A stretch of 22,241 nt of DNA from a virus. The notes under the pieces are model-generated. The model was not told where the DNA came from. It ran no database searches and worked only from the letters and a program-made list of their open reading frames with translations. The translations under genes were made by a program, and so were the position numbers. The stretch is from the IMG/VR virus record IMGVR_UViG_3300035670_001341, positions 1 through 22,241 of that record, one strand, 5' to 3'. Shown one piece after another: positions 5,362 through 22,132 of the stretch; position 1 is the first letter of the stretch, and the number at the start of each line of letters is the position of its first letter.

Positions 5362-6336
5362 ATGAGAAAGAATCAAAATTTCGCAACAATCGCTCAGCCA
5401 ACTATCGCTAACTCAACGTATAGCGGTGAAGCAGCTAGTGGTTTTATCGCAGCAGCGTTATTGTCTGCTAAGACTCTTGATAATGGATATGTAACTATAA
5501 TGCCGAACGTTAAGTACAAATCTGTTATCCAAAAAGTATCAGTAGATAACATTATCTCTGATGCATCTTGTGATTTCCAAGCAAATGCTTCTGCATCTAT
5601 CGCTGAGAGAATCATCGAACCAAAGGAATTACAAGTTAACTTACAATTATGTAAGGACGAATTTGTACAATCATGGGAAGCAATTTCTTTAGGATATTCT
5701 GCTTTCGATGAAATTCCAAAATCATTCACAGACTATTTAGTATCTTATGTAGGTGGTAAAGTAGCTGAAGCAACTGAATTATCAATTTGGGGTGGTGCAA
5801 CTGCTACAAATGGTGAATTCGGTGGTTTCGAAACTATCTTATCAGCTTCAGTAGCAGCAGGTACAGGTGTAGTTGCAGCAACTTCAGGTTCTACAATTAT
5901 CTCTGGTTCAATCACTTCTGCTAACGTATTAGATAAATTAAACTCTATCGTAGACTCTATCCCTGATACAGTATATGGTAAAGAAGATTTATTGTTATAC
6001 GTTCCAACTAACGTAGCAAAAGCTTACCAACAAGCATTAGCAGGTGGTGCTATCGGAGCAAACGGATGGAACAACCAATTAAACGTTGGTGAAAAACCAT
6101 TCAACTTCAATGGTATCGAAATCGTACATTGCCCAGGTATGACTGCATCTAAAGTAGTTGCAGCACAAAAATCTAACTTATTCTTCGCAACCGGATTGCT
6201 AAGTGATTACAATCAGGTTAAGGTGTTAGATATGGCAGACTTAGACGGTAGCCAAAACTTCCGTATTATTATGAGATATACAGCTGGTACACAAGTAGGT
6301 GTATTATCTGATGTAGTTTACTACGGAGCTTACTAA
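5362..6336 (+). CDS. Major capsid protein (HK97 fold inferred)
   Basis: This 324-residue protein has the length, composition and position expected of an HK97-fold capsid subunit. It is mixed alpha/beta, with a helix-like stretch at about residues 117-135 (FDEIPKSFTDYLVSYVGGKV), a Gly/Ala/Ser-rich middle and a C-terminus RIIMRYTAGTQVGVLSDVVYY typical of capsid proteins of Bacteroidetes phages. It follows the scaffold and is followed directly by a hairpin terminator. By eye it uses more C-ending Asn, Phe and Ile codons than the fibre genes, as expected for the most highly expressed virion gene. It ends with a double TAATAA stop. The N-terminal region may be trimmed by the protease at 19574. Confidence 0.85.
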   Translation: MRKNQNFATIAQPTIANSTYSGEAASGFIAAALLSAKTLDNGYVTIMPNVKYKSVIQKVSVDNIISDASCDFQANASASIAERIIEPKELQVNLQLCKDEFVQSWEAISLGYSAFDEIPKSFTDYLVSYVGGKVAEATELSIWGGATATNGEFGGFETILSASVAAGTGVVAATSGSTIISGSITSANVLDKLNSIVDSIPDTVYGKEDLLLYVPTNVAKAYQQALAGGAIGANGWNNQLNVGEKPFNFNGIEIVHCPGMTASKVVAAQKSNLFFATGLLSDYNQVKVLDMADLDGSQNFRIIMRYTAGTQVGVLSDVVYYGAY

Positions 6337-7425: not shown

Positions 7426-8694
7426 ATGAAACAACAACAAAATCTTTCAGTTTTAAACTTGTCAAGAATGGATGTTCCTATCATAACGGAGGATACAAAG
7501 ACTCGTTATAATTGGGTACCAGTAGGAATCAACGGACACGATGATTATTTTGATGCTATAACTGAAGCGTATAACACATCTACAACGAACGCAGCATGTG
7601 TTGAAGGTTCTGCCGATTTAATTTATGGTAAGGGTTTAACTACTGCCGATGTAACATTCGAAGAGGATTTAGCAAAGTTATTACCAGGAGAAGATGTAAG
7701 AAAGGTTGCATTTGATTTAAAATTATATGGTAATGCAGCATTCCAAGTGTTTTGGAACGATGACCACACAAAGATAAAGAAATTCTATCATATTCCAGTA
7801 CAAACCCTTCGTGCAGAGAAATTATACGAACATACAAAGATTCAAAACTATTTCTATTGTACTGATTGGAATGATTTTAAGAAACAAAAAGAGAAAATCA
7901 AAATTCCTTCATTTGGAACATCTAATGAGAAATTAGAAATCCTTTACATTAAGGAATACGAACCAAATAGATACTACTATTCATTACCAGATTGGGTATC
8001 TGCATTACAATTTTCATTTGTAGAAGCAGAATTATCTAATTTACATTTCAATAATATTGAGAATGGTTTCTTACCATTAGTAATGATTAATATGAATAAT
8101 GGTGTTCCTGCACCTGAAGAAAGAGAAACAATCGAAGCAATGATTACCTCTAAATTCACAGGAACTCGTAATGCTGGTAGATTTATGTTATCATTTAACG
8201 ATGATGCAGCAAACAAACCAACATTAGATGCAATCAATATTGATAACTTGCATGAAAAGTACCAATACGTTGCAGAATACGCACAAGATAGAATCTTAGT
8301 TGCACATAGAATAGTTTCTCCATTACTTTTTGGTATCCGTACTGCAAATAATGGTTTCTCATCACAAAGTGAAGAGATGAAAACGGCCTATTCTATTTTC
8401 CAAACGATGACAATACAACCATTTCAGAACATCATCTTGAATTTTATTTCTGATGCCTTATTGAATGGTGGTTGGGGTAAAAAAGACCTGTCATTCGAAC
8501 AATTAACCCCATTAGTCATCCTTTCTACTACAGCAGAAGAAACTGGACAAACTATTGCAGAGGTAGAAGAAGATGTAAACGAACAAATGGAAAGTGGTGA
8601 TACAACAGAAATGGGATATAACCACATCCAAATGGAAGAAGAACCAAAATATTTGAGAACAACTCAACCATTCTTTAAAACCGAATTTGAATAA
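7426..8694 (+). CDS. Portal protein
   Basis: This 422-residue protein has the length and layout of siphophage portals. An N-terminal alpha/beta region (TEAYNTSTTNAACVEGSADL) is followed by a segment like those of the portal core (KVAFDLKLYGNAAFQVFWND, KKFYHIPVQTLRAEK). Then come the stem region and a C-terminal helical part (RILVAHRIVSPLLFGIRT, SQSEEMKTAYSIFQTMTIQP) in which the HRI and LFG residues are typical. The portal dodecamer forms the DNA entry vertex and anchors the connector. The acidic C-terminus ends KTEFE. It overlaps no neighbour: the next gene starts after a single spacer base. Its position downstream of the capsid gene, not upstream, is unusual. Confidence 0.85.
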   Translation: MKQQQNLSVLNLSRMDVPIITEDTKTRYNWVPVGINGHDDYFDAITEAYNTSTTNAACVEGSADLIYGKGLTTADVTFEEDLAKLLPGEDVRKVAFDLKLYGNAAFQVFWNDDHTKIKKFYHIPVQTLRAEKLYEHTKIQNYFYCTDWNDFKKQKEKIKIPSFGTSNEKLEILYIKEYEPNRYYYSLPDWVSALQFSFVEAELSNLHFNNIENGFLPLVMINMNNGVPAPEERETIEAMITSKFTGTRNAGRFMLSFNDDAANKPTLDAINIDNLHEKYQYVAEYAQDRILVAHRIVSPLLFGIRTANNGFSSQSEEMKTAYSIFQTMTIQPFQNIILNFISDALLNGGWGKKDLSFEQLTPLVILSTTAEETGQTIAEVEEDVNEQMESGDTTEMGYNHIQMEEEPKYLRTTQPFFKTEFE

Positions 8695-9220: not shown

Positions 9221-10096
9221 ATGGCAAGTCAACAAATAGTACATAATAACGCTACAAACTTCTCTTTGTATTACAACGTTCTAAATTATTTTAAAACGAT
9301 AATGACGAACCACCCATCTATTGGACACGTAACACAAGGTGATGTTTTCAGTATAGATGATAGAGAATTTCCAATGTATCCCGTTGGTAATATCTTAGTG
9401 CAAGGTGCTAACTTTGGTAGTAACATAACTGAATATCAAATTCAATTGATTGTTGCTGATAAAACCAAATTAAAAAATGATGAATCAGAGGGTGAAACAA
9501 ATAGTCAAGAAATTCCGTACTATGGAGTGGATGATGTGGTTGATATACATGCAAATACTTTGAGTGTCCTGAATGATTTAACCTCATATACACAAAGGAG
9601 TGTAGAGGGGTTTGAAATCAACGGAGAGATAAGTTGTGAACCCTTTAAAGATAAGTTTGATAATGGACTGGCAGGTTGGTCCGCAACATTCGACCTGACG
9701 GTTCACAACGACAAAAATCGTTGTCTTTTTTTTTTAATTAATCCATCTGGAAGTTATTATAGAATAGAAGATTGCGAAACGGGTGATATATACAATGCAG
9801 TAACTGCAACAACTGGAAGTATCGGACAAGTATTTGCTACAAACATTTATCCAAGCTCTCAACCAATCAGTTACTTGCAGAATTATGAAAATATAAAATG
9901 TTTTACAATATTAGAAGAGATAACTGGTAGAGATAATTACGATTTCTACAATTTACCAATTCTATCAATACCTTACTACGATTTTGGAAATTGTGCATTA
10001 TGTGAATTATGGACATCACCAAAAGTGTGGGGTACAACACCAGAGAAGTGGGGTACAGGAGTTGATGTAGCATTAAGAAAGTGGCAATACACATAA
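9221..10096 (+). CDS. Neck or tail-completion-like protein with extra C-terminal domain
   Basis: This 291-residue protein has two parts. Residues 1-~168 form a region I recognise from marine phage genomes (FKTIMTNHPSIGHVTQGDVF, EFPMYPVGNILVQGANFG, VDDVVDIHANTLSVLNDLT, FDNGLAGWSATFDLTVHNDK), found near the connector and likely at the head-tail joint. After the T10 run (residues 169-172) comes an added part with DCETGDIY, GQVFATN, KCFTILEE and CALCELW, a cysteine layout like exchangeable adhesion domains of such phages. It ends with spaced tryptophans (WTSPKVWGTTPEKWGTG), perhaps the original C-terminus. The gene starts 6 nt after its neighbour with the leader ATAAAAACTTATGGC. Virion role likely; exact role uncertain. 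Confidence 0.6.
   Translation: MASQQIVHNNATNFSLYYNVLNYFKTIMTNHPSIGHVTQGDVFSIDDREFPMYPVGNILVQGANFGSNITEYQIQLIVADKTKLKNDESEGETNSQEIPYYGVDDVVDIHANTLSVLNDLTSYTQRSVEGFEINGEISCEPFKDKFDNGLAGWSATFDLTVHNDKNRCLFFLINPSGSYYRIEDCETGDIYNAVTATTGSIGQVFATNIYPSSQPISYLQNYENIKCFTILEEITGRDNYDFYNLPILSIPYYDFGNCALCELWTSPKVWGTTPEKWGTGVDVALRKWQYT
9725..9742 (+). other. T10 slippage-prone tract inside the neck-like gene
   Basis: Codon 169 (CTT) begins a run of ten T at 9726-9735, followed by AATTAAT. In the annotated frame it reads Leu-Phe-Phe-Leu-Ile-Asn. With one extra T the frame meets TAA after 173 residues; with one fewer T it meets TAA after 171. The zero-frame codons also fit a U-UUU-UUU slippery heptamer. Slippage in either direction would therefore make a short product ending at the domain border. 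Confidence 0.5.
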
Positions 10097-10114
10097 AATA
10101 AAAAAATATATAAG

Positions 10115-11833
10115 ATGAGTAATTTATCAAATTTATACATTTCACAAAGTTACCAGGGTTTATTACACTTAGGTACTAATCAATCCATTACGGCTTCAAT
10201 CGGACAAGGTTATGTTCAGATACAAGATGGTGTTGGAGCTTGGATGTCTGCATCTATTGATTCGAATGGTAATCTATATCTTGTGAATGATGTATCATCA
10301 TCTACAATCACTACAAACGATATCTATGTAGATAATGACCTAATTGTTTCTGGTAATTTAATTGTACATGAGAATGTAGAGTTGAAAGGAAACGTAGATA
10401 TCACAGGCAGTGTAACGATTAGTGAAAACCTTTTTGTAAGTGGAACAATCCATGCGTATGAGGTTATTACCTTAATTGAAAGTTCATCAGTAATTTTCTC
10501 TTCTGGTTCTAACGTAATTGGTGATTCTACATCTGATACTCAAACTATTGTAGGTCAAACTACTATTAGTGGAAGTTTAGGTGTAACTGGTACACAAACT
10601 AATACTGGTAATTTATTCGTAACAAACGAAATCTCATCTTCAACAATAAATGGAATTGGTAATGTAGCATTATATTCTCAATCAGTTGATTCTCGTTTAG
10701 ATTACTTAGAAGGGCCGTTCTCTACATCAGTAGATAGTAGATTAGACCAATTAGAATTTGATTCTGCATCACAAGATAGCCGTTTAGATAATATTGAAAA
10801 CTATACAGCATCTTTAAGAACTGCATTTACTGCAAGTGGAACTGATGTAAACTTTAATGGTAATATAAATGTAGTTGGTTCAATCAATGCGTATGAGATA
10901 CATACCATAATCGAATCAAGCAGCGTTATATTCTCTTCAGGGTCGAATGTTCTCGGTGATAATGTATCTGATACTCAAACTTTAAATGGAACTGTCACAA
11001 TCCCTAATACTTTGTTTGTAGCAGGTGTTGAATTTATTCCATTTAGTTCATCAGTTGATTATAGATTAGATAATTTAGAAGCATTTAGTTCTTCATTAGT
11101 TTTTGATTTTGTTACTCAAGCACAATTAACACAAACTGCATCAGTATTACAAACTAATATTGATAAGAAATTAGATTCTGCTTCATTCCAATCTTATACT
11201 TCTTCAAATGATGTATTGGTTGCAGGTAAATTAAATACATCTTCATTTGAAGCATATACAGCTAGTGTAGATACTAAATTTACTACAATTGGAACTTATA
11301 CAGGTTCTAATGATACAAAATGGAACACATTAGGTGGATATACTGCATCAGTTGATACTAAGTTCAATACAATCGGTAGTTATACTGCAAGTAACGATAC
11401 TAAGTGGAATACATTGCAAAATGTAACTGCATCTTTAATTAATGCAACTGGCTCTTATGCAACAACTGGTTCAAATACATTTATAGGTTCAAATACATTT
11501 GATGGTAGAGTAAATGGTAATTCAGTTTCAATGTCAATCTCTTCTGCTACTGCTAGTTTAGATTGTTCATTAGGTAATTTCTTTTATTTATCTATACCAT
11601 CCGGTTCAACACATCTTTCAGTAAGTAATATTATTGGTGGTCAAACTATTTCATTAAAAATAACACAACCATCAGCTGGATATGGTATTATAACGTATAA
11701 TACTGGTAGTATTAAATTCCCACAAAGTGCTGCACCTATTTTAACGAATAATGTAAATGCAGAAGATATAATAACGTTTGTTTCATATACAGAAAGTTCA
11801 TTATATGGAGTAATAACACAAAATTTAGTTTAA
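10115..11833 (+). CDS. Tail fibre protein 2
   Basis: This 572-residue fibre starts with a short attachment-like region (LYISQSYQGLLHLGTNQSI), followed by two ESSSV modules (residues ~114-147 and ~259-292). Heptad-like shaft repeats come next: SVDSRLDYLE, SQDSRLDNIE, SVDYRLDNLE, then alternating TASVDTKFTTIG and TASNDTKWNTLG. The C-terminal ~105 residues (SLDCSLGNFFYLSIPSGST, GQTISLKITQP) match the end of fibre 1. N-terminus, shaft and cap suggest a trimeric fibre. It follows the neck-like gene after an A-rich gap and runs into the third adhesin by a TAATATG junction. Shared modules with fibre 1 imply exchange by recombination. The receptor is unknown. Confidence 0.85.
   Translation: MSNLSNLYISQSYQGLLHLGTNQSITASIGQGYVQIQDGVGAWMSASIDSNGNLYLVNDVSSSTITTNDIYVDNDLIVSGNLIVHENVELKGNVDITGSVTISENLFVSGTIHAYEVITLIESSSVIFSSGSNVIGDSTSDTQTIVGQTTISGSLGVTGTQTNTGNLFVTNEISSSTINGIGNVALYSQSVDSRLDYLEGPFSTSVDSRLDQLEFDSASQDSRLDNIENYTASLRTAFTASGTDVNFNGNINVVGSINAYEIHTIIESSSVIFSSGSNVLGDNVSDTQTLNGTVTIPNTLFVAGVEFIPFSSSVDYRLDNLEAFSSSLVFDFVTQAQLTQTASVLQTNIDKKLDSASFQSYTSSNDVLVAGKLNTSSFEAYTASVDTKFTTIGTYTGSNDTKWNTLGGYTASVDTKFNTIGSYTASNDTKWNTLQNVTASLINATGSYATTGSNTFIGSNTFDGRVNGNSVSMSISSATASLDCSLGNFFYLSIPSGSTHLSVSNIIGGQTISLKITQPSAGYGIITYNTGSIKFPQSAAPILTNNVNAEDIITFVSYTESSLYGVITQNLV
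10454..10555 (+). repeat. 34-codon fibre module, copy 2 (ESSSV type)
   Basis: This is the first of two copies in fibre 2, with the core LIESSSVIFSSGSNVIGD and DTQ. It is exactly as long as the other copies and lies about 330 nt upstream of copy 3. Confidence 0.85.
10889..10990 (+). repeat. 34-codon fibre module, copy 3 (ESSSV type)
   Basis: This copy (IIESSSVIFSSGSNVLGD, DTQTLNG) is closer in protein to the copy in fibre 1 than to its own neighbour in fibre 2, yet uses different synonymous codons (for example AGCAGC where copy 1 has TCTTCG). Confidence 0.85.
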
Positions 11834-17508: not shown

Positions 17509-17655
17509 ATGATTAAAGAAATTATAGACCTATTACAAATAAGTGATTTTTACGGAGAAAGTGAAACAATTGATATTGCAAAAGGAAAATATGCATATCC
17601 AAATACTTTAACCGAAGCATTAACTTTATTAAAACGAACATGGCATGGCAGATAA
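17509..17655 (+). CDS. 48-residue ORF upstream of the tape measure
   Basis: This short ORF (MIKEIIDLLQISDFYGESET, ending LLKRTWHGR) starts 24 nt after the hub gene and overlaps the tape measure start by 11 nt in another frame. It is preceded by the ATTGTTAAA motif. The predicted make-up is a helix, a beta turn with DIAKGKYAYPNTL and a second helix. Its place just ahead of the tape measure is where tail assembly chaperones usually sit, but it is far shorter than those and shows no frameshift site, so that role is speculation. The frame is intact and the overlap suggests translational coupling to the tape measure. Confidence 0.5.
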   Translation: MIKEIIDLLQISDFYGESETIDIAKGKYAYPNTLTEALTLLKRTWHGR

Positions 17656-19543
17656 TACTACAACATATAAAGCCGTAATTGATGCGGAAGTAAAGGGTGC
17701 TGATGAAATCAAAGATTTAGGTGATAAGACCGAAGAAACAGGTGATAAGTTCGTCAAACTCCAATTACAAATTCGTCAAACACAAAAAGATTTACAAGCT
17801 GCTGCAGCTGCAGGAGATAAAGTAAAGTTTGATAAGTTAAGAGCACAATTAGATGATTTGGAAGATGGATTAGAAAAAGTTCAGTTCCAATCAAAACAAT
17901 TTGAAGACCAATTAGCATCATTACCAGGTCCTGCAGGACAAGCTGGTGGAGCAGTTAAAGGTGTAAGTGATGCGTTTAAGTTATTACTTGCTAATCCAGT
18001 TATTGCTGTAATTGGTGCAATCATTGGTATTTTCTTATTATTTAAGAAATCATTAGAATCTACTGCTGAAGGACAAGAAACTCTTAATCGTATTTCCACA
18101 GCATTTGGTAAAATATTAGGACCAATCCTTGCAACTATTGAAAAGGTTGCACTTCCTTTATTTGAAGGTTTAGCATTCGTATTAGAAAAAGTTGGTGAAG
18201 GGTTTGCATTCGTTGCAAGAAAGATAGGTATTGCTGATTCTAAAATCAAAGAAGCATCTTCTGGAATTAAAGATTTTAAGAAAGCAAACGAAGATGCTGC
18301 AAAGGCTGCAAAGGATGCATCTGATAAAGCAGAAGCTGATGCTAAGAAGAAAGCAGAAGATGCTAAGAAACGAGCAGAGGAATCTAAACGTCAGGCAGAA
18401 GAAGCAAGAAAGAAGGCTGAGGAATTAAAACAAAAAAGAATTGAAGAAGCTAAATCTGCAATAGAATTAGCATCTAAAGCACAATCTGCAGAACAAAATC
18501 TTGCTAATGCAAGAAAGAAACGTTTTGATGATAGAATCGAAGAGATTAAAAACGAACAAGTTGAAGCAGATGTAGCATATAAAATTGAAGTAGATAGAAT
18601 TAATAATCTATTAAAGGTTCAGGGTCTTGCAGAGAAAGAAAGAAAACAACTTCTTATAGATAGAACTAATGCTGAGGCAAAGTATCTTGAGGATAAGAAG
18701 AAGATGGAAGGTGCCATCATCGAAGAAGAGAAGAAGAGAGCTGAGGAGAAGAAGAAAGAAGAAGAGAAGGCTGCAGAAGATAAAAAGAAAAAAGATGAAG
18801 AGGATGCTAAGAAGAGAGAAGAAGATGCTCAGAAATTAGCAGATGCAGAATCTCAAGCAAGAATGGATAAGGCTGCTAGAATCTATTCAGAATACGAATT
18901 ACAAGATACTCTAACTAAACAATCGTTCCAATCTCAAATTGATACTTTTGATAAGGTAAGAGAATTGGAAAGAGCAGATATGGTTGCAAAGATGGCATCA
19001 GCAGATGCTCTTGCAGCGTTTGATGCAGAAACTGCAAAGACAAGAGTTGATATTGAAAGAGCAGCAACTGAAGCTAAATTAGGTATTGTATCTAATGCAT
19101 TGGGAACTATTGCACAAGCAGTTGGTGAACAAACAGTTGCAGGTAAAGCACTTGCAGTTGCACAAGCAACGATTGATACTTACTTAGGTGCTACTAAGGC
19201 ACTTGCAACATACCCACCTCCATTTGGTGCTATTGCTGCAGGTACAGTTATCCTTGCTGGTTTATTAAACGTTAGAAAGATTATTTCTACACAAGTTCCT
19301 AAGATGCCAGGTGCAACAGGTGGAGGTGGTGGAAATGTTTCCACACCATCTATTCAGGCACCATCAGTATCATCACCACAAGTACCACAATTACAAGGTG
19401 GTGGTGCAATAAATCCAACAACACAAATTGCTGAAGGATTGAGTAGAGCATCAAACAAACCAATCAAAGCATATGTAGTTGGTACTGATATGAGTTCACA
19501 ACAAGCATTAGATAGACGTACTACATCAGCAGCAACGTTTTAA
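17645..19543 (+). CDS. Tail tape measure protein
   Basis: This 632-residue protein is mainly helical. It has an N-terminal helical region with QLQIRQTQKDLQAAAA (about 40-56), a hydrophobic segment at about 112-134 (LLLANPVIAVIGAIIGIFLL) and a long Lys/Glu/Ala coiled coil from about 208 to 390. A Gly/Pro/Gln-rich linker precedes a C-terminus KAYVVGTDMSSQQALDR that is typical of tape measures in Bacteroidetes phages. The tape measure sets tail length and carries a segment that inserts in the host membrane. At roughly 0.15 nm per residue the tail would be about 95 nm, which is inference. It starts inside the preceding small ORF. Confidence 0.85.
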   Translation: MADNTTTYKAVIDAEVKGADEIKDLGDKTEETGDKFVKLQLQIRQTQKDLQAAAAAGDKVKFDKLRAQLDDLEDGLEKVQFQSKQFEDQLASLPGPAGQAGGAVKGVSDAFKLLLANPVIAVIGAIIGIFLLFKKSLESTAEGQETLNRISTAFGKILGPILATIEKVALPLFEGLAFVLEKVGEGFAFVARKIGIADSKIKEASSGIKDFKKANEDAAKAAKDASDKAEADAKKKAEDAKKRAEESKRQAEEARKKAEELKQKRIEEAKSAIELASKAQSAEQNLANARKKRFDDRIEEIKNEQVEADVAYKIEVDRINNLLKVQGLAEKERKQLLIDRTNAEAKYLEDKKKMEGAIIEEEKKRAEEKKKEEEKAAEDKKKKDEEDAKKREEDAQKLADAESQARMDKAARIYSEYELQDTLTKQSFQSQIDTFDKVRELERADMVAKMASADALAAFDAETAKTRVDIERAATEAKLGIVSNALGTIAQAVGEQTVAGKALAVAQATIDTYLGATKALATYPPPFGAIAAGTVILAGLLNVRKIISTQVPKMPGATGGGGGNVSTPSIQAPSVSSPQVPQLQGGGAINPTTQIAEGLSRASNKPIKAYVVGTDMSSQQALDRRTTSAATF

Positions 19544-19573: not shown

Positions 19574-20608
19574 ATGAAATTATATGAACTTACAATAGAA
19601 GACCCGAACGTTGACGAAGTGATGGCCATATCATTGGTAGAAGCTCCGGCCATTGAATCTGATTGGGTGTATTTTAATAAAGATGAAATTGCTTTTGCAA
19701 AAGTAGATACAGAACAACGTATTTTATTAGGAGCAATCTTAATTCCAAATAAACGTATCCTAAGAGTAGATGGAGAAGGACAACCATATGAGGTATTCTT
19801 TACACCACAAACAATTAAGAAGTTAGCACAGAATTATCTTGCAAAGAAATATACTGATAAAGCAACATTAGAACACGATAAGAAAATCAAAGGTGTAACA
19901 CTTGTTGAGTCGTGGGTTAAAGAAGGAAAATTAGATAAATCAAACAATTACGGATTAAACTTACCAGAGGGAACTTGGGTAGGTATGATGAAGATAACTG
20001 ATGATAAGATTTGGAATGAATTCGTAAAGACAGGTAAGATTAAAGGATTCTCTATTGAAGGAGTATTCGAACATAAATTAGTTAAGGCTAGTAAAGATGA
20101 ATTGAAAGCTGAGTATTTGTTAAGTAAAATTAAACAAATTATCTTAGAAGCAAATCCATCATTAGTATCACCATCTTATAGTGGTGAGATACCTAATCCT
20201 GATGAAGATGAAGATAGATTCATATCTCCAGCATTATTAGAAGAAGGATGTCCAGAAGCAACTCAAAGTATTCCAGTAAACTTAGCTAATAGAGCTAATG
20301 CAGTAAAAATAGCACATTATGGGCCACTTAACCCAAATGAACCGAACGAAGATTATTGGAAGAAGAAAGCAGATATGTTTGAGGGAAACGTTGAATCCGC
20401 AAAGAAAGCATTATGTGGAAATTGTGCGTTTTTCATCCAAACCAAAAAAATGTTGGATTGTATTGCATCTGGTATAGGTGGAGAAGTAAAAGATGAGTGG
20501 GATACAATCCAAGCAGGTGATTTAGGATATTGTGAAGCATTTGATTTTAAGTGTGCAGCAAGTAGAACTTGTGATGCTTGGGTGACAGGAGGTCCCATAA
20601 CTGACTAA
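19574..20608 (+). CDS. XkdF-type prohead protease with C-terminal cysteine cluster
   Basis: This 344-residue protein has two domains. Residues 1-~170 match XkdF-like phage serine proteases (Peptidase_S78_2 type): a DEVMAISLVEAPAIE start, a candidate catalytic His101 (HDKKIKG), ESW at 112-114 and a candidate catalytic Ser160 in GFSIEG. This enzyme would cleave the scaffold and capsid N-termini during head maturation. A linker with PSYSGEIPNPDEDED leads to a C-terminal domain holding Cys281, 284, 296, 320, 327 and 333 (CGNCAFF, GYCEAF, CAASRTCDAWVTGGP). That spacing suits a metal or iron-sulfur site. The gene lies after the tape measure, far from capsid and scaffold, which is unusual. Protease assignment good; cluster chemistry unknown. 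Confidence 0.7.
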   Translation: MKLYELTIEDPNVDEVMAISLVEAPAIESDWVYFNKDEIAFAKVDTEQRILLGAILIPNKRILRVDGEGQPYEVFFTPQTIKKLAQNYLAKKYTDKATLEHDKKIKGVTLVESWVKEGKLDKSNNYGLNLPEGTWVGMMKITDDKIWNEFVKTGKIKGFSIEGVFEHKLVKASKDELKAEYLLSKIKQIILEANPSLVSPSYSGEIPNPDEDEDRFISPALLEEGCPEATQSIPVNLANRANAVKIAHYGPLNPNEPNEDYWKKKADMFEGNVESAKKALCGNCAFFIQTKKMLDCIASGIGGEVKDEWDTIQAGDLGYCEAFDFKCAASRTCDAWVTGGPITD

Positions 20609-21583: not shown

Positions 21584-21736
21584 ATGGAAACTAAATTACT
21601 ACAATTAGAATTGGATATGGAAAGAGCAAAAAGAGATATTGATGAAATCAGAGATATCGTAATTGCACTATCTTATACCATAAACGATATTGATAAAAAA
21701 ATAACAGCATTTTTAGATGGCAAAGAAAACAGCTAA
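21584..21736 (+). CDS. 50-residue predicted coiled-coil protein
   Basis: This intact ORF starts after one spacer base (TAATATG) and encodes METKLLQLELDMERAKRDID, continuing helical to LDGKENS. Heptad-like leucine and isoleucine spacing suggests a small coiled coil, perhaps oligomeric. It overlaps the next gene by 20 nt. The junction pattern and the tight spacing support that it is a real gene. No function is recognised. Confidence 0.6.
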   Translation: METKLLQLELDMERAKRDIDEIRDIVIALSYTINDIDKKITAFLDGKENS

Positions 21737-21845
21737 TTCAAATACAAAAGTTGGTTTCGGTAAAAAGAAATCTCAACCAACAGGTAAGACATCATACAAC
21801 AAACATAATCCAAAACCGAAAGCATATCGCGGACAAGGTAGATAA
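21717..21845 (+). CDS. 42-residue highly basic protein
   Basis: This intact small ORF encodes MAKKTANSNTKVGFGKKKSQ and ends SYNKHNPKPKAYRGQGR. It is about one-third Lys and Arg, so it is likely unstructured and able to bind nucleic acid or ribosomes. It starts inside the previous gene (20-nt overlap, different frame) and ends 50 nt before rpsU. The RGQG(R/K) tail is a pattern I associate with short proteins of Bacteroidetes phages, which supports it being a real gene. The function is unknown; its neighbourhood next to bS21 makes an RNA-related role worth testing. Confidence 0.55.
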   Translation: MAKKTANSNTKVGFGKKKSQPTGKTSYNKHNPKPKAYRGQGR

Positions 21846-21895
21846 TACCCATTAAAACGATTTTAAGCCGGCAAGAATAACAAAAAAATAAAAGA

Positions 21896-22132
21896 ATGAG
21901 TGTTTCATTAGTAGGAATTAAAAAAAGAGAAGGAGAGGATATTTCCTCTTTATTAAAAAGATTTAAGAAGAAGGTAGAATCATCTGGTCATCTGATTGAA
22001 TTAAGAGAAAGAAAATACTTTGTTAAACCATCAGCAGTTAAACGTGCTAGAAAGAATGATGTAGAGTTTAAACGTAAAGTAGAAAAGATATTGGAAAGAG
22101 AGAGAATGATAAAGGCTAAGAGTAAAATGTAG
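21896..22132 (+). CDS. rpsU: Ribosomal protein bS21, phage-encoded
   Basis: This 78-residue basic protein shows the bS21 core LLKRFKKKVESSGHLIELRE followed by FVKPSAVKRARKN and a Lys/Arg-rich helix. Bacterial bS21 is usually about 55-70 residues; the extra length is at both ends. It binds the 30S platform near the 3' end of 16S rRNA. The block aligns without gaps to Bacteroidetes bS21, and F58 falls where flavobacterial bS21 has Tyr54, reported (from memory) to help hide the anti-SD. The leader (21846-21895) is A-rich and has no SD. This is the only gene in the window ending in TAG; the 24 others end in TAA. It probably replaces or competes with host bS21 to alter translation during infection. 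Confidence 0.9.
   Translation: MSVSLVGIKKREGEDISSLLKRFKKKVESSGHLIELRERKYFVKPSAVKRARKNDVEFKRKVEKILERERMIKAKSKM

Follow-up and report, generated by a model that had tools for sequence, protein, structure and literature searches.

No ribosomal protein is encoded by phages more commonly than bS21, and the viral contig studied here encodes a bS21 that has an aromatic residue at the position of Tyr54 of the Flavobacterium johnsoniae protein and whose gene lacks a Shine-Dalgarno (SD) sequence. The question that this locus raises is what such a protein would do to the ribosomes of the infected cell, and whether the anti-SD of these ribosomes would stay hidden. The window, i.e. the whole 22,241-base stretch of DNA that was analysed, is a linear IMG/VR viral record. 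A preliminary description had placed a complete bS21 gene at the end of a phage structural module, and this was confirmed. That is, in a profile search the ORF at 21896-22132 matched PF01165 as a complete bS21 with 44 bits (curated cut-off 27), it also matched phrog_21469 (ribosomal protein S21), and the best PDB sequence matches of its product were the bS21 chains 9i5v_9 and 7jil_z. The AlphaFold2 model (pLDDT 87.5) has predicted helices at residues 16-30, 32-40 and 45-77 that fit bS21; Foldseek matches of the model to bS21 (8rd8, 4ybb) were weak, with E about 0.1.

The bS21 gene is the last of a continuous late module on the + strand, comprising portal, capsid-like, neck and tape measure proteins and an XkdF-type protease (Table 1), and the module is common to the window and two IMG/VR relatives, L002 and L003. 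The bS21 proteins of these relatives are 94% (L002) and 75% (L003) identical to that of the window. The dN/dS is 0.14-0.22, and the gene is therefore under purifying selection. No close relative of the window bS21 was found in the phage collection searched. In L002 the operon ends at a hairpin terminator about 100 bases past bS21, followed by a helicase-like gene.

Table 1. Features of the window discussed in the text
Feature	Position	Strand	Evidence and remarks
Probable major capsid protein	5362..6336	+	phrog_11320, weak phrog_1623 (virion structural protein); 25% to Nonlabens phage protein
Portal protein	7426..8694	+	phrog_33693 (1.4e-64); 36% to Nonlabens phages P12024
Tail tape measure protein	17645..19543	+	phrog_9483 and others
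XkdF-type prohead protease, Cys-rich C-terminal half	19574..20608	+	PF14550, 57.5 bits; N-terminal part 36% to Nonlabens phages P12024
Basic protein of 42 aa with C-terminal YRGQGR, directly upstream of bS21	21717..21845	+	conserved in L002 and L003
SD-less, A-rich bS21 leader	21846..21895	+	TTTTAAGCCGGCAAG within it is conserved across the window, L002 and L003
bS21 (ribosomal protein S21) gene, 78 aa, ATG start	21896..22132	+	PF01165, phrog_21469, PDB matches, AlphaFold2
Phe58 codon, aligned with Tyr54 of F. johnsoniae bS21	22067..22069	+	ungapped alignment, offset 4
3′ region of operon, hairpin terminator start cut by contig end	22133..22241	+	complete in L002: AAACCCCTTCCGTTTCTTTGGAGGGGGTTT

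Some further properties of the module can be recorded here. The Cys-rich half of the protease is 58% identical to a protein of the Actinomycetia phage DSL-LC01 annotated as 'high potential iron-sulfur protein'. The 42-aa protein had no Pfam or PHROG match and was absent from the other bS21 phages looked at. The 3′ region after bS21 is conserved (L002 4236-4380); ATTCCTCCCGCC, which includes the anti-SD core CCTCC, occurs in this region of the window and of L002 but not of L003, and the L002 region folds more stably than its shuffles (z -2.9), largely owing to the terminator. An Rfam search around bS21 gave no match for a conserved RNA element.

The nearest or near-nearest cultured relatives of the portal, the capsid-like protein, the protease and a tail-module protein are the flavobacterial Nonlabens phages P12024L and P12024S, which are 35.6 kb long and have Flavobacteriaceae as hosts. 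In the phage collection, the portal, gene 14950 and the capsid-like protein had them as sole or best match (25-36% identity), and the protease matches them at 36% in its N-terminal part. Furthermore, A is frequent upstream of the window genes (68% at -3 and 64% at -13, against 36% overall). Such A-rich upstream positions have been reported for Bacteroidia (PMC9976891). The relatedness to Nonlabens phages, the SD-less leaders described below and the frequent upstream A together make it likely that the host is Bacteroidia-like and SD-blind. A flavobacterial host had been supposed at first; at that rank the assignment was not established, and what stands is the Bacteroidia-like, SD-blind host suggested by phage relatives and leaders. 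A portal search for prophages, confined to 247 genomes of the class Bacteroidia, gave 9 matches, the best at 29% identity.

The preliminary description had further held that the phage gene lacks an SD and so escapes the control exerted on host rpsU. The first part was borne out: GGAGG, GAGG and AGGA are all absent from the leader, its duplex with the 16S tail reaches -1.5 kcal/mol, and the extended SD of autoregulated rpsU genes is not present. The alternative flavobacterial SD (TGAGA, fitting an alternative anti-SD) was considered as well and is absent from the leader. The strong SD attributed to flavobacteria-type host rpsU also held, since 11 of 14 such leaders form duplexes of -16 to -18 kcal/mol with the 16S tail, in agreement with PMC9976891. 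A core SD precedes bS21 in 20 of 71 Bacteroidota genes versus 2 of 43 aromatic-type phage genes (Fisher p 0.0026, a value overstated by the relatedness of the rows). The escape part stood only in so far as the leader is without SD, but this is not special to bS21: core SD tetramers precede 3 of the 22 window genes versus 2 of 22 in the mock set, with a median duplex of -0.3 versus -2.1 kcal/mol, and the genes of Nonlabens phage P12024L give 3/38 versus 4/38. The idea that the missing SD is a special escape device was therefore rejected. SD absence is the norm of the whole phage, so that any escape from host control would be a by-product, and the phage bS21 leader is unlike that of regulated host rpsU and like those of the other genes of the phage.

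The leader thus needs no special explanation, all window genes being SD-less, and this would suit an account in which the phage merely adds to the supply of a ribosomal protein that is limiting, assembled late and exchangeable, at a time of heavy late translation, with specificity unchanged and the missing SD without meaning. The loose binding and exchangeability of bS21 (PMC6375957) agree with this. We nevertheless regard it as improbable, as topping up would not by itself explain why residue 54 follows SD usage across phages (see below), although shared ancestry might.

The leader carries a motif, TTTTAAGCsGGCAAG, that is conserved in the three phages. Its core AGCGGGCAAG, spotted by eye, is also present in the late-gene strand of L421, a phage related to the window whose bS21 (619-807, Tyr at 58) and late genes lie on opposite strands, and the motif may therefore be a relic. 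Other arrangements of bS21 and SD were seen elsewhere. One Bacteroidia-type phage bS21 (L341) has a strong SD, AAAGGAGGT, in a phage that is otherwise SD-less, which may copy the autoregulated arrangement of the host. Some SD-using phages (L249, L252-L262 and L437-L441) show the opposite of that arrangement, in that their own bS21 leader is SD-less (AAATTAAATTA). Moreover, some Bacteroidota genomes have a tandem duplicate of bS21 or a second copy of it without SD (L142 in G109, L169 and L184 in G204, L179 and L180 in G239).

An aromatic residue at the Tyr54 position, as had been proposed from the sequence, was recovered in two ways. That is, phmmer aligned residues 9-60 of the query to residues 5-56 of 7JIL chain z without gaps, at a constant offset of 4 that puts F58 on Tyr54, and the multiple alignment has F58 in the same column. 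The alignment is of only moderate accuracy at F58, with an HMMER posterior of about 0.5-0.7, owing to divergence of the flanking helix (D55, V56). When the protein was aligned locally with each of the 82 aromatic-type hosts, F58 fell on Tyr in 53 cases, and 18 alignments stopped short of it. Among the 82 Bacteroidota bS21s with an aromatic, the Tyr54 column holds 77 Tyr, 4 His and 1 Phe; Arg occupies it in 85 bS21s from other bacteria, among them Chlorobi and Cloacimonadota. F58 is the sole aromatic of the 32-residue tail; L002 and L003 (the latter 75% identical) likewise have Phe there and L421 has Tyr, in a neighbourhood where many positions are variable. The contact helix differs from that of hosts, which mostly have K/R at 51 and, in 81 of 82, A at 52, so that the combination of K/R and A is not found in the window protein. 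In F. johnsoniae, Y54A derepresses SD mRNAs about 3-fold, and loss of the bS21 C-terminus halves translation of an SD-less mRNA (PMC9976891).

The divergence beside F58 (D55 for K/R, V56 for A) could mean that this residue is no working latch, in which case anti-SD sequestration would be weakened and infected ribosomes would start to recognise SDs. The placement of the protein outside Bacteroidia bS21 in the best trees (below) points the same way. The phage, however, has no SDs on its own genes that could benefit, and the conservation of an aromatic among variable neighbours in L003 and L421 argues against it, so that we give this reading little credence.

The N-terminal region bears on another possibility. 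V27, at F. johnsoniae position 23, is a phage-typical Val (Phe in 63 of 82 hosts, Val in 41 of 65 aromatic phages), and S29 and H32, at positions 25 and 28, are unlike the hosts, which mostly have K/R and V/T/I there. Chen et al. found phage-host divergence in this region (PMC9723584) and proposed that a divergent N-terminal helix near the mRNA path retunes mRNA choice in favour of phage over host transcripts. Sequence comparison, however, revealed no feature separating the phage leaders of the window from ordinary SD-less Bacteroidia leaders, and we consider such retuning unlikely here, though less so than a failed latch or a simple top-up.

The preliminary description spoke of the phage 'keeping' the aromatic, which implies descent from Bacteroidia bS21. 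In a 68-row tree the window protein and those of L002 and L003 fell outside the supported Bacteroidia group (98/92); with the position-58 column masked, the trio grouped with SD-using phages, E. coli and Cloacimonadota (96/88); and with L421 and more relatives added, it joined a phage-own family sharing SGHL(I/L)ELRERK (88/95). AU tests did not reject a placement with Bacteroidia (p 0.24, 0.24 and 0.16). The alignments comprise 64-72 columns, the AU tests were non-significant both ways, and the phages with Arg at position 58 (R-type) shifted between trees. Assignment of the protein to a known host clade was given up for this reason, the columns being too few. Except for L002, L003 and L421, the nearest relatives have Arg at position 58. 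'Keeping' is therefore not established, given best trees outside Bacteroidia and AU tests that do not reject a Bacteroidia place. Re-acquisition of the aromatic would fit as well as retention, and the trees suggest that the window bS21 probably descends from the phage-own family.

We compared residue 54 with the SD use of all long ORFs in 48 bS21-encoding phage contigs of 12-22 kb, taking the first ATG of each long ORF as gene start, which is crude but affects all contigs alike. The 30 contigs with F/Y/W/H at 54 had an SD before 9.2% of 577 genes (mock 11.6%), versus 46.7% of 351 genes (mock 9.1%) in the 18 contigs with other residues (Mann-Whitney p 3.9e-5, uncorrected for kinship). To a large extent this association reflects the separation of Bacteroidia-type bS21 from the rest. 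Within the SGHLxELRERK family, the four members with F or Y (the window, L002 and L003 with F, L421 with Y) have an SD before 3 of 68 genes (mock 8), and the 25 Arg members before 231 of 368 (mock 28). There are exceptions. L423, whose bS21 (10001-10207) lies at the same end of the module and whose late genes match those of the window at 28-60%, has Arg at 58 and is yet SD-less (3/19, mock 2); it is either a clear counter-example or, as may be supposed, infects an SD-less host whose bS21 is of the Arg type, such as one of the Chlorobia. Three SD-less phages (L218, L226 and L232) have K/M at 54, against the rule, and L004, L005 and L219 have His at 54 yet use SDs. An independent-pairs sign test had no power, the changes being too few. 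The comparison suggests that residue 54 tracks the SD usage of the phage itself, as a lead and not a proof, with exceptions and few independent changes. One could go further and propose that a phage-own, non-Bacteroidia bS21 lineage gained a Tyr54-like anti-SD latch (F/Y) on moving to SD-blind hosts, its relatives in SD-using hosts having Arg, so that residue 54 would reveal the translation mode used by the host; we put this forward tentatively, as a doubtful but serious possibility.

The explanation that we prefer, by a modest degree of belief above even, is that the window belongs to a tailed, siphovirus-like phage infecting a Bacteroidia-like host and encodes a late bS21 that keeps host ribosomes SD-blind and stands outside the SD-dependent feedback on rpsU. 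This explanation draws on the observed gene, its position and purifying selection, the SD-less genome, the aromatic residue and the residue-SD association. As a late product, the phage bS21 would replace or supplement host bS21 on 30S subunits, where F58 would stack on the 16S 3′ tail like Tyr54 and leave the anti-SD hidden. Ribosomes would then stay tuned to the SD-less, A-rich phage leaders, sustaining their initiation. Because its own leader is without SD, the phage gene would lie outside the host feedback, and its synthesis, unlike that of host rpsU, would be independent of bS21-free ribosomes. In a host with SD-regulated rpsU, ribosomes filled by phage bS21 would turn rpsU off and reduce host bS21 synthesis. 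The helix around F58, unlike that of hosts, and the exceptions to the residue-SD association (L423, the K/M and the His phages) count against this explanation. Moreover, E. coli ribosomes carrying a pelagiphage bS21 retained about 5% of their activity in vitro (PMC6375957), and bS21 substitution can therefore do harm. If residue 54 does follow phage SD usage, phage bS21 would be suited to the way in which host ribosomes initiate, a single-residue comparison at 54 would be a direct test of bS21 control over anti-SD exposure, and a further prediction would be that an SD-less phage bS21 shuts down the SD-dependent rpsU gene of its host.

Neither the idea of takeover nor the finding of an aromatic at 54 is new. 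An aromatic at 54, late expression and ribosome takeover by bS21 were published for Bacteroidetes phages (Chen 2022, PMC9723584), among whose jumbo myophages the Tyr54 position is Tyr in 54 of 61, with a few His and one Phe; incorporation and purifying selection were also published (PMC6375957), and an interplay of phage bS21 with host autoregulation was speculated on earlier (PMC9976891). Like the phages of Chen et al., the window has bS21 near late structural genes, a predicted Bacteroidetes host and an aromatic at the Tyr54 position. Their phages, however, are large or jumbo myophages with bS21 on the reverse strand in the TerL/capsid region, whereas the window phage appears small, siphovirus-like and related to Nonlabens P12024, its bS21 closing the late operon on the same strand and lying outside the Bacteroidia-type group in the best trees. 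Compared with F. johnsoniae bS21 (7JIL; PMC9976891), the protein aligns without gaps over residues 5-56 and shares an aromatic at 54, but has Phe instead of Tyr, D and V for K/R and A at 51-52 and 14 more residues, and its leader is without the extended SD of F. johnsoniae rpsU. The R-type phage bS21s (L215, L249, L253, L426-L445) share the N-terminal half and SGHLLELRERK (47-49% identity in compared members); unlike the window they have Arg at position 58 and, except for L423, SD-using genomes. The bS21 of pelagiphage HTVC008M, likewise phage-encoded and under purifying selection but of alphaproteobacterial type, enters E. coli ribosomes and is the sole phage bS21 so shown in the literature examined (PMC6375957). 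Against this background, three points are apparently new as far as the literature was searched: the occurrence in a siphovirus-like phage, the probable origin from a phage-own lineage, and the association of residue 54 with the SD usage of the phage.
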